DNA of 64,000 nt from Bacteroidota bacterium. Lineage in GTDB: Bacteria; Bacteroidota; Bacteroidia; Bacteroidales; PUMT01. Under the pieces are notes generated by a model. That model ran no database searches. It was given only the letters and a program-made list of their open reading frames with translations, and was not told the DNA's origin. Below are positions 57,933 through 64,000 of the stretch, piece after piece. Position 1 is the stretch's first letter, and every line of letters begins with the position of its first letter. The stretch is from the NCBI GenBank assembly GCA_003554865.1, contig PWHJ01000122.1, positions 122,398-186,397 of the forward strand. Direction: 5' to 3'. The position numbers and the translations under genes are program-made.

Positions 57933-60011
57933 TCAAAACCTGATCCTTATCTGTGCCTTAGCCTGGGAACGCCTGTTGCCATCAATTTCATCCAGACCTG
58001 ATCCCATTGTAGTTCTCCCGGGCAAAAGTGTGGTAGCATAACGCAGCCACAGGTCAACAGAACCGCTTACCCCATACCGTGCCGTTATATATGTACGGTA
58101 TCCGCTGTCAAAATAAGCCGGGAAAGAAAAACCGTAAAGCACGTCATTTTCATATGCATAAATGCGTGCATTGTAAGAATCGGTATCAAATAAACCATAC
58201 CTGAAAGCAAAAGAGAGGGGGCCTGCAGAAGGGTTGTATATAATATCATGATAAATTAAAAAACCTTTTTCGGATGCATTTTGCTCTGTTTTGTACCTTG
58301 CAAACTCTATTCTGTTGCGAAACTCAACTGAAGGGGAAATATTATAGGCTATATGGTAACGAATCCTGGTATTGTCGTTTTCCATAAGATACCTTACATT
58401 GTTATAGCCCACAGGGGAGTTGACCGGTTTTGACCTGTGTCTCAAACGTGCATACATTTGCACATTTCGGGAAAGAGTATAGTCGGCCTGAACCAGAAAG
58501 TCGGTTCCCGCCGAAGGGGCATATGCACCGTAGCGAAGCCACGGGAAAGAATAGTTATCGTAATAGGCGGAGACTTTGATTCCCTGGGGCAAATAAACTT
58601 CCGCACCCAGGTAAATCCCCTTTTCATTGACCGGGCTGGTGCTTTCACTAAAGGCGCTGCCGTACCACGCATGGTAATCCCTGTCATAATCCCTGTACAA
58701 AACTGCAACATTCAACCCGGGGGAAAGATCCCACAATACACCGGTCAACATTGCCATACCTCTTCCGCCGGCTGCAATCTCCCCGAAAAAACTAATATCA
58801 TAATAATTGAAACGGTAATTGAACCCAATGTTGATATTCTCCCTGCCTCTGAACACAAACTGGTTGTATTGCCGTAAAGGCCTGTTAAAGGGAGCGGAAT
58901 AAAAATAATGCAAAGCCGTTACTCCCACCTTGAAATTCTTGTGATTGTAGGTTATATCCCCCCCAAAGATAGTCTCGCCCAGCACATTCTTGTTTTCAAC
59001 CTGAGAAGGAGTAGCATGAAGGCCGGTATTTGGAAGCGAAGAGACCTCAAGTATATTTCCGGTTGTATCAGCGGCGGAAACTCTGGCATCTATTTTCTTC
59101 CGCGAAAAAAAAAGGCTTAAATCGGTATTTGCTGTTACACCGTATGTAGCCCCAACCCCTCTCATAAACATATTCTCGTCGGTGCTTGAATATTTTTGAA
59201 TGCCGCGGGGATTTTTCGCAATATTCATTGATGCGGCAGATTTTCCGAAAGAAAAGCCGGACCATAAAACCAGTCCCTGCCCAAACTGCATGCGGTAATC
59301 CCCCAGGGCAAGCGTTCTTAAACGTCCGGCATCATTGATCTGAAAATGAAAAGAGTGATAATCCATCCCGTAAGGATTGGAGCCGGTGAACATCTCCTCA
59401 CCCGAGTCTTTTTCAGCGACAAATCCCCAGTATATCCGATTACTCAGGTTATACTGGTATCGGGTATAAAGCTTCAACGGACCGCCCAGATACCGGGAAT
59501 TGGGATTTTGGGCAAGAACCGAGTCACATATTGACCTGTAACCTTTCTGCTGCTGAAGAATCCCCTGCGCCCTCAGAAAAATCTGATGCCTTCCGTAACG
59601 GAGCGATTCCCTCTCAGGCAGCAGCAAATAAGGCTGAGCCTCTTCAGTTGTAACAAAAGGGAGGATCTTTAATATTATATCCCCGGTAAAGCCGTCAACA
59701 TAGCCAAGTTCGTGGACAGAAGCCATTTTGCCGTACTCGCCTATATAATCCAACAGGTTGGTTATCTGTATATCGTTTAGGATATATAACCTGTGGAGCT
59801 GATCCCTTGTGGCGGTGTTAAGGTTTAGGGGATTGTCCGTGAAATAGGTCAGGTCATCGTAAATGCGGGAGTGGTCAAACTCTGTTCCGGCAGCAACAAG
59901 CTCTTCCACAACATCCTCCACTGTCATCTGAAAGCATGTAGTCTGACTATTCAGTCCGATAAATCCGGAGAGAAGATAAACAAAAAATATATGAGCAGAT
60001 TTTCTCATCAA
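57933..60011 (-). CDS. Helix-hairpin-helix (ComEA-like) N-terminus fused to a predicted outer-membrane beta-barrel
   Basis: NPLNLNTATRDQLHRLYILNDIQITNLLDYIGEYGKMASVHELGYVDGFTGDIILKILPFV then aromatic beta-strand-rich region ending RIRF. Confidence 0.75.
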   Translation of the reverse strand: MMRKSAHIFFVYLLSGFIGLNSQTTCFQMTVEDVVEELVAAGTEFDHSRIYDDLTYFTDNPLNLNTATRDQLHRLYILNDIQITNLLDYIGEYGKMASVHELGYVDGFTGDIILKILPFVTTEEAQPYLLLPERESLRYGRHQIFLRAQGILQQQKGYRSICDSVLAQNPNSRYLGGPLKLYTRYQYNLSNRIYWGFVAEKDSGEEMFTGSNPYGMDYHSFHFQINDAGRLRTLALGDYRMQFGQGLVLWSGFSFGKSAASMNIAKNPRGIQKYSSTDENMFMRGVGATYGVTANTDLSLFFSRKKIDARVSAADTTGNILEVSSLPNTGLHATPSQVENKNVLGETIFGGDITYNHKNFKVGVTALHYFYSAPFNRPLRQYNQFVFRGRENINIGFNYRFNYYDISFFGEIAAGGRGMAMLTGVLWDLSPGLNVAVLYRDYDRDYHAWYGSAFSESTSPVNEKGIYLGAEVYLPQGIKVSAYYDNYSFPWLRYGAYAPSAGTDFLVQADYTLSRNVQMYARLRHRSKPVNSPVGYNNVRYLMENDNTRIRYHIAYNISPSVEFRNRIEFARYKTEQNASEKGFLIYHDIIYNPSAGPLSFAFRYGLFDTDSYNARIYAYENDVLYGFSFPAYFDSGYRTYITARYGVSGSVDLWLRYATTLLPGRTTMGSGLDEIDGNRRSQAKAQIRIRF

Positions 60012-60862
60012 AATTTGTAACTGAGTGAAATATGAGGGGTAAAGCCCAGCACCTGATGATGTGTAAACGCCATATCGGCATTAATTCCCCTGTAAACATA
60101 ACCCAGTCCGAAAGAATTTTGCACCGGGTCTGACAAAATGCCTGTACGCAAATAAAATGAATCAAAAAAACCTGCCTCCAGTCCGGCCCTGAACACCGCT
60201 TTCCTCTCCAGTTCCTTTTCGGCTTCAATAGTTGCAGATATTTTTCCGCCAAACATATATCCCACCCCGAACCTAAAAATTGTGGGAAGAACCTGACGAG
60301 ACGGGTTGCCGATCTTTTCCCGCGAGGGATTGTAAACATGGGCAGCCACTCTGAAACCTTCTGCCAATTCGGCAATAAATCCTCCTTCAACAGTAAGATT
60401 CCTTGCATCGCCGTATTCCTCGGCTATATATATTTGTAAATAATTTAAACGTATACCTGCAGCCACATTTTCACCAAAAAAGCGTCCGAATGCCAGGCCA
60501 AAACTATTTTCATTATAGGAGGGAAACCCGAAATAGCTGTAGCTAAACCCTATTGTACCGGGTCTTGCCGGCACTGCCAGAGCAACAGCACGAAGAGCAA
60601 ATTCGGAAACATTAAATTTATTTTCATAATGGATACCTGCACTAACGGAAGAAACACCTGCCAATCCGGCCTGGTTGTGGTAAACCGACCACAGATCATG
60701 AAACGTTACTGCAGCGTTAGCCATTGAAGCGGCTCTGCTCCCGGAAGAGTAGTTGCCGGCGGGGTTTGCACTAAGGCAAAAAGCAAAAAAAAGCAGCAGG
60801 GCTGCTCCTTTTCTGAGCGAAAAGAGCCCTGCTGCCAAAAGTTGTACCAAACTGAATTTCAT
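60008..60862 (-). CDS. PorV/PorQ-like outer membrane protein
   Basis: SGSRAASMANAAVTFHDLWSVYHNQAGLA; beta-strand repeats; C-terminal SLSYKF; 4-bp overlap with downstream CDS. Confidence 0.8.
   Translation of the reverse strand: MKFSLVQLLAAGLFSLRKGAALLLFFAFCLSANPAGNYSSGSRAASMANAAVTFHDLWSVYHNQAGLAGVSSVSAGIHYENKFNVSEFALRAVALAVPARPGTIGFSYSYFGFPSYNENSFGLAFGRFFGENVAAGIRLNYLQIYIAEEYGDARNLTVEGGFIAELAEGFRVAAHVYNPSREKIGNPSRQVLPTIFRFGVGYMFGGKISATIEAEKELERKAVFRAGLEAGFFDSFYLRTGILSDPVQNSFGLGYVYRGINADMAFTHHQVLGFTPHISLSYKF
60785..60835 (-). terminator. Intrinsic-terminator-like hairpin plus U8 inside the N-terminal coding region of the PorV-like gene
   Basis: Minus strand GCAGCAGGGCT-CTTTTC-gctca-GAAAAG-gagc-AGCCCTGCTGC-TTTTTTTT. 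Confidence 0.85.
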
Positions 60863-60950
60863 TAACTTAGATTAAGAAAAATAAAACCCCAAAAGGGAAA
60901 ACCTTTTTATTAATAAACCCGATTCCTTAACCTAAGATAATAATTTTTTT

Positions 60951-61463
60951 TTAATTAACCTTAAAAGGGAACTTTATTTCTGAAAGTTCTTCGTTGGCTT
61001 TCAGAATTTTCCCCTTAAGCTCTTCCTTAAATTTTTCCACTTTGCCATATGTGCTCTCATCTCCGGTCCCGAGTATCTGTGCTGCAAGGATACCCGCATT
61101 GCGGGAGCCGTTCAGCGCAACGGTAGCAACCGGAATACCGCCCGGCATTTGAAGTATTGACAAAACTGAATCCCATCCGTCAATTGAGATCGAAGATTTA
61201 ATAGGCACACCTATGACCGGCAGCGGTGTTACTGCCGCAATAACGCCCGGAAGGTGGGCGGCACCGCCGGCACCTGCAATAACAACCCTGACTCCCCTGT
61301 CATAAAGACCCTTTGCAAACTCCATAACCCTGGCAGGGGTACGGTGGGCTGAAAGAGCATTTATCTCAAAAGGTATTTCAAAATCATTAAGTATCTTTGC
61401 AGCTTCTTCCATTACAGGCATATCTGATGTACTGCCCATTATAATACTAACTTTTGGCTCCAT
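60951..61463 (-). CDS. purE: 5-(carboxyamino)imidazole ribonucleotide mutase
   Basis: VSIIMGSTSDMPVMEEA, SAHRTPARVMEFAKG, AGAGGAAHLPGVIAA. Confidence 0.97.
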   Translation of the reverse strand: MEPKVSIIMGSTSDMPVMEEAAKILNDFEIPFEINALSAHRTPARVMEFAKGLYDRGVRVVIAGAGGAAHLPGVIAAVTPLPVIGVPIKSSISIDGWDSVLSILQMPGGIPVATVALNGSRNAGILAAQILGTGDESTYGKVEKFKEELKGKILKANEELSEIKFPFKVN

Positions 61464-63925: not shown

Positions 63926-64000
63926 ACCTCCGGGTAGAGCGGTTTGTTGCCTCCCCGCTCCCCCACAGATCCGGACGAGCGCCGTTAACGCATCCGGTTC
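63926..64000 (-). mobile_element. 3' end (domain V/VI-like) of a probable group II intron, truncated by the window edge
   Basis: Minus strand GAACCGGATGCGTTAACGGCGCTCGTCCGGATC hairpin followed by GTGGGGGAGCGG..CCGCTCTACCC stem with bulged A; resembles DV/DVI of bacterial group II introns. Confidence 0.65.

Follow-up and report, generated by a model that had tools for sequence, protein, structure and literature searches.

A hairpin with the look of a transcription terminator, placed within the signal-peptide codons of a porV-like gene, raises the question of whether it is an accident of coding, the terminator of the preceding gene, or a regulatory element of the gene that contains it. When a terminator falls within the coding sequence of a gene, it is usually taken to be an accident that ribosomes suppress. 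In the 64,000-nucleotide stretch of Bacteroidota DNA analysed here (the window), the hairpin, H2, lies on the minus strand at 60793-60835 and consists of an 11-bp lower stem, a 4-nt bulge, a 6-bp upper stem and a 5-nt loop, with a U8 tract (60785-60792, minus strand) directly 3' of it within Leu-Phe-Phe codons. The minus strand from 60835 to 60785 reads GCAGCAGGGCTCTTTTCGCTCAGAAAAGGAGCAGCCCTGCTGC TTTTTTTT, giving the RNA GCAGCAGGGCU-CUUUUC-gcuca-GAAAAG-(GAGC bulge)-AGCCCUGCUGC, then UUUUUUUU. The stem corresponds to nt 28-70 of the ORF 60862-60008 (codons 10-24) and the U8 tract to nt 71-78. Folding of a 66-nt segment gave a minimum free energy of -29.7 kcal/mol (z = -3.3), with 1 of 200 dinucleotide shuffles equally good. 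H2 and U8 together have the anatomy of an intrinsic (Rho-independent) terminator, i.e., a GC-rich stem directly before a U-rich tract, and a d'Aubenton-Carafa score (d-score, calculated with the generally known formula) of 54.7. Sequence and folding confirmed the hairpin of the original prediction in every detail, from the 11-bp and 6-bp stems, 4-nt bulge, 5-nt loop and U8 to its place at codons 10-24; that prediction did not include the upstream hairpin (H1), the promoter-like motif or the conservation throughout the family, all described below.

The host ORF (60008-60862, minus strand) encodes a 284-aa PorV/PorQ-like outer-membrane protein with an N-terminal signal peptide. It matches the NCBIfam model NF033709 (PorV_fam) with an E value of 1.3e-11 and 44.7 bits against a curated cut-off of 90, and is accordingly PorV-like only, short of membership in the PorV/PorQ proteins of the T9SS at that cut-off. 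The protein had no match in Pfam and no relative by sequence in the PDB. Downstream, a 692-aa outer-membrane-like ORF (57933-60011, minus strand) overlaps the porV stop codon and is presumably co-transcribed with porV; it adjoins porV in the family, matches nothing in Pfam or NCBIfam, and is a still uncharacterised, outer-membrane-like companion to the PorV-like protein. Upstream lies purE (60951-61463, minus strand), which precedes porV at 9 of the 11 orthologous loci; L006 is counted as purE-linked from a purE tail at the contig end.

We considered whether the Ala, Leu and Phe codons of a signal peptide simply happen to yield a hairpin and a T run, as GCA and CTG codons and TTT favour such sequences. 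The N-terminus was recoded synonymously 500 times using the gene's own codon usage, and none of the 500 recodings matched H2 as a terminator. Against a genome baseline consisting of the first 40 codons of 238 genes in a 323-kb sample of the window genome, H2 ranked first of the 238 gene starts at -27.0 kcal/mol, the next best reaching -17.6 kcal/mol with a poor tail, and its d-score of 54.7 compared with 12.1 for the runner-up gene start, with values above zero in 6 of 238 genes. None of 1823 internal coding windows in the same sample reached -20 kcal/mol. The failure of the recodings, the uniqueness of H2 among the 238 genes and its conservation with covariation in all 11 orthologues leave a chance origin scarcely credible, and the family comparison rules it out. 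The runner-up in-gene hairpin near a start (-17.6 kcal/mol) lies within codons 5-20 of L129:3539-4762 and has a poor tail (TATTTATG).

Ortholog searches placed the window genome in a Bacteroidales family of two genera (g1 and g2), the named records of its relatives being sediment MAGs with the labels CSSed16, CSSed10 and T3Sed10, which we take to denote soda-lake samples. The porV orthologues were recovered by an alignment-based contig scan, a single-protein query having given none, and the resulting set comprises 11 genomes from the two genera with porV including its start (51-64% protein identity). The contigs of G001, G006 and G009 contained no more than the final part of porV or the gene after it, and porV is probably cut by contig ends in these genomes. 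In all 11 orthologues the signal-peptide codons contain a hairpin followed by a U-rich tail, with differing sequences: the porV frame is open from the first ATG through H2 in each, the stem starts at nt 26-31 of the ORF and the tail at nt 61-70, while the stem arms change from GCAGCAGGGCU/AGCCCUGCUGC in the window to ACCGGCAGG/CCUGCCGGU in some orthologues and ACAGGGAUAAUGAUC/GAUCAUUAUCCCUGU in L011. The d-scores are positive throughout the family (13.9-54.7), and none of 33 PorV orthologues outside it scored above zero at the porV start. For 9 of the 11 orthologues, at most 3 of 500 synonymous recodings were equally strong. The hairpins of L002 and L004 are weak, being equalled by 46 and 64 of 500 recodings, respectively, and L005 and L008 have poor tails (UUCUUGUU and UUCCUGUU).

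In an alignment of the nine g2 sequences, 86.9% of cells pair and double compensatory changes occur at 9 of the 17 H2 pairs. The covariation score was 0.271, compared with 0.142 for shuffled alignments (0 of 500 as high) and at most 0.143 for slid structures, a control that somewhat favours the tested structure because the latter was derived from the same alignment. Using fixed codon windows for the tail (codons 22-27), we counted 129 T residues against a synonymous expectation of 116.3 (z = 3.36; z = 0.97 in the outgroup), and this enrichment supports termination over a bare hairpin. The original prediction had proposed to ask whether the hairpin is conserved to a greater extent than the protein sequence requires, and such conservation was found by the recoding nulls, the covariation and the T-enrichment of the tail, which together point to selection on the RNA. 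A conserved N[YHF] motif follows the ATG at a distance of 35-38 codons in family members versus 20-35 in outgroup proteins (those with a placeable motif and a credible start), and the signal peptide was therefore probably lengthened to house the 5' arm of H2.

Two readings of the element had originally been put forward, a purE terminator reused as signal-peptide coding sequence and a translation-coupled attenuator. The former draws support from the purE-linked loci, where the interval between purE and H2 contains no other strong terminator, and for this reason H2 may also end purE transcripts as a side effect. In G015 (L010) and G007 (L011), however, a divergent hpt gene adjoins porV and purE lies elsewhere, yet the hairpin, the U-tail and the TATCTTGA motif are kept, which indicates that the element belongs to porV and is not simply the terminator of purE. 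Furthermore, the hairpin is absent from loci of several outgroup genomes in which porV directly follows purE, and H2 sits 3' of porV's own promoter-like motif. The G007 and G015 loci and the outgroup pairs thus weaken the purE reading, which we now regard as very unlikely, and the attenuator is favoured. In G007 and G015, purE is found on a different contig from porV, and the purE genes of G006, G007 and G015 (L041, L042 and L043) share 59-63% identity with that of the window versus 77-85% for other family members, which suggests that purE was replaced or relocated.

The promoter-like motif, TATCTTAG (60932-60939, minus strand), was recognised by motif comparison as a putative Bacteroidota -7 element, a variant of the consensus TAnnTTTG (PMC7366714). 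TAnnTTTG occurs at 2.9 per kb upstream of genes and at 0.38 per kb in coding DNA of the window genome. The core TA[AT]CTT precedes the ATG in all 11 orthologues, by 32-36 nt in g2 and 76-77 nt in g1, and in its longer form, TA[AT]CTTGA, departs from the consensus. Between the motif and the gene, the predicted hairpin H1 (60868-60934, minus strand) fills the 5'UTR and ends 5 nt before the AUG. H1 is weak in the window genome (z = -1.7, not significant) and has a counterpart in g2, where it is strong in 8 of 9 members, seven of which gave z values of -3.1 to -6.6 when folded alone. It is also significant in L002, and folding found no stable H1 in L011. The H1 arms of g1 differ from the g2 palindrome and are longer. 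If TA[AT]CTT acts as the promoter, the transcription start would fall on or after part of the H1 5' arm, and the RNA actually made may contain a shorter H1 than the one drawn. We also considered H1 as the DNA operator of a regulon and rejected this, as the perfect palindrome was found at the porV locus of six g2 genomes, while a seventh has it at a single site elsewhere.

The location of the two hairpins on either side of the start codon allows a reading in which they control translation initiation, pausing or mRNA decay and the U-tract merely reflects the Phe-rich core of the signal peptide. The hairpin is indeed kept more tightly than a good U-tail (L005 and L008), H1 ends beside the AUG, and mRNA structure is known to tune translation initiation in Flavobacterium johnsoniae (PMC6847099). 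We nevertheless consider this reading improbable, given that the tail is enriched in T beyond the synonymous expectation and that terminator scores are positive in all 11 orthologues and in none of the outgroup.

Our preferred reading, held with moderate confidence and built on sequence comparison, is that H2 and the U-tract form an intrinsic transcription attenuator within the signal-peptide codons of the porV-like gene, with the ribosome as the likeliest means of release. We infer termination in vivo from the anatomy of the element and from the selection on stem and tail, and the promoter and the control of H2 by ribosomes are likewise proposals. Transcription would start near TA[AT]CTT and yield a short 5'UTR that would fold as H1 in most members. 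About 65-70 nt past the AUG, the polymerase would meet H2 and the U-tract, where a fraction would stop and release a leader RNA of about 100 nt (about 140 nt in the window genus); if H2 failed to form, transcription would run on to give a complete mRNA covering porV and the gene after it. This suggests premature ending of many porV-like transcripts, with the polymerase passing only when something, probably a ribosome, allows it. The likeliest blocker of H2 would be a ribosome that has reached about codons 5-10 of porV before the polymerase clears the U-tract. H2 is within reach of a ribosome translating the porV frame in all 11 orthologues, and because it lies inside this frame any closely following ribosome would have to open it. 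Bacteroidota lack Shine-Dalgarno sequences. The AUG-adjacent H1 would set the speed of ribosome loading, and the element would thereby read translation initiation into transcription, a role made plausible by the tuning of initiation by structure near the AUG within the phylum. Terminators opened by ribosomes have been described for pil1 (PMC3894217) and for pyr/pyrL constructs (PMC5021804). More tentatively, and with somewhat less than even confidence, we propose that the signal peptide serves as the leader peptide, its n-region having been lengthened and its amino acids drifting freely while the RNA maintains a constant spacing between AUG and terminator, such that transcription of the operon would continue only if translation starts promptly.

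Experiments in Escherichia coli raise a different possibility. A terminator placed 30 nt after the AUG works there, with translation costing only about 10% of its efficiency (PMC4824070), and by analogy a ribosome may arrive too late so near the AUG, leaving H2 a constitutive, unregulated terminator. Because of that small loss, this is the simplest alternative: H2 would end a constant share of transcripts, whether begun at the porV promoter or arriving as read-through from purE, and would lower two outer-membrane proteins irrespective of the ribosomes, with no sensing involved. It gains support from the efficiency of E. coli terminators in the first 100 bp of coding regions despite translation (PMC4824070), from the purE-H2 interval with no other strong terminator, and from the lack of a conserved antiterminator, the 5' arm of H2 having no common alternative upstream partner across the 11 orthologues. 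A weak promoter would, however, be a cheaper solution, and a connection to translation is suggested by the constant spacing of AUG and H2 and by the position of H1 next to the AUG; we therefore judge a constitutive terminator unlikely.

Several other regulatory designs were examined in addition to the ribosome-released attenuator. Pairing between H1 and H2 as an antiterminator was seen by eye just in the closely related pair L005 and L008 and is not general. An amino-acid leader-peptide attenuator of the trp/his type was rejected since codons 2-9 differ widely among the 11 orthologues and contain no shared residue run. Internal starts, which would make H2 a plain 5'UTR terminator, were set aside: they are possible in L004, L007, L010 and L011, but L003 has no other start in its first 30 codons. 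The leader RNA, comprising H1, the signal-peptide codons, H2 and the U-tail, might instead function mainly as a trans-acting sRNA with porV expressed by read-through. The promoter-like motif, 5' hairpin and terminator do resemble an sRNA unit, and 5'UTR-derived sRNAs are reported in Bacteroides thetaiotaomicron (PMC7366714), but it is mainly the pairing that is conserved, with no obvious seed sequence, and the region must encode a signal peptide as well, so that we assign this possibility a very slight probability.

The E. coli pyrBI (pyrL) attenuator offers a first comparison. There too an intrinsic terminator lies inside a translated frame near its start and a close ribosome prevents termination (PMC4824070; PMC5021804), but pyrL is a separate leader peptide, whereas the frame at porV is the signal peptide of the regulated gene itself; no UTP-sensing pause region was identified at porV, which does not belong to pyrimidine biosynthesis. 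In the pil1 leader of Streptococcus gallolyticus, a ribosome on the leader frame similarly opens a premature stem-loop terminator before surface-structure genes (PMC3894217), but pil1 has a separate leader peptide, GCAGA repeats and phase variation, whereas porV has no repeats and carries the terminator inside the structural gene. By analogy, the porV element would work like the pyrBI and pil1 leaders but without a separate leader peptide. ORF-internal terminators and 3' ends of E. coli also lie within coding sequence and are suppressed or used by translation, but in the available portions of the two sources they are not described as family-conserved, covarying or held at one start-codon distance (PMC7815308, PMC5021804). 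B. thetaiotaomicron, from the same phylum, has TAnnTTTG-type promoters, sRNAs derived from 5'UTRs, and leader ORFs for which attenuation is suspected, but these sRNAs and ORFs lie in 5'UTRs and not in a gene's own signal peptide (PMC7366714). In the open-access literature we found no conserved attenuator in a gene's own signal-peptide codons, which is not proof of novelty. At porV, compensatory changes preserve a putative in-gene terminator at a single position of the signal-peptide codons throughout a bacterial family. If the proposed mechanism is true, the element would provide a natural test of transcription-translation coupling in Bacteroidota and an example of RNA function shaping signal-peptide sequence, and annotation tools that seek attenuators only in 5'UTRs would miss such in-gene elements.

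The element is restricted to porV and to this family. A covariance model (R1) recovered each of the nine g2 porV leaders at an E value of 1e-12 or better in 16 family genomes and found nothing convincing elsewhere in them (best other E value 0.026). We therefore rejected a repeat or mobile element; as R1 failed to detect the two g1 members, it might also overlook a diverged copy at another site. In Rfam, no family matched at its gathering score, the best match over the element reaching 24.2 bits where 70 are required. A sub-threshold match to an Rfam group II intron domain (24.4 bits, E value 0.16) was observed at 63928-64000 on the minus strand, where it is cut by the window end, and is probably due to chance.
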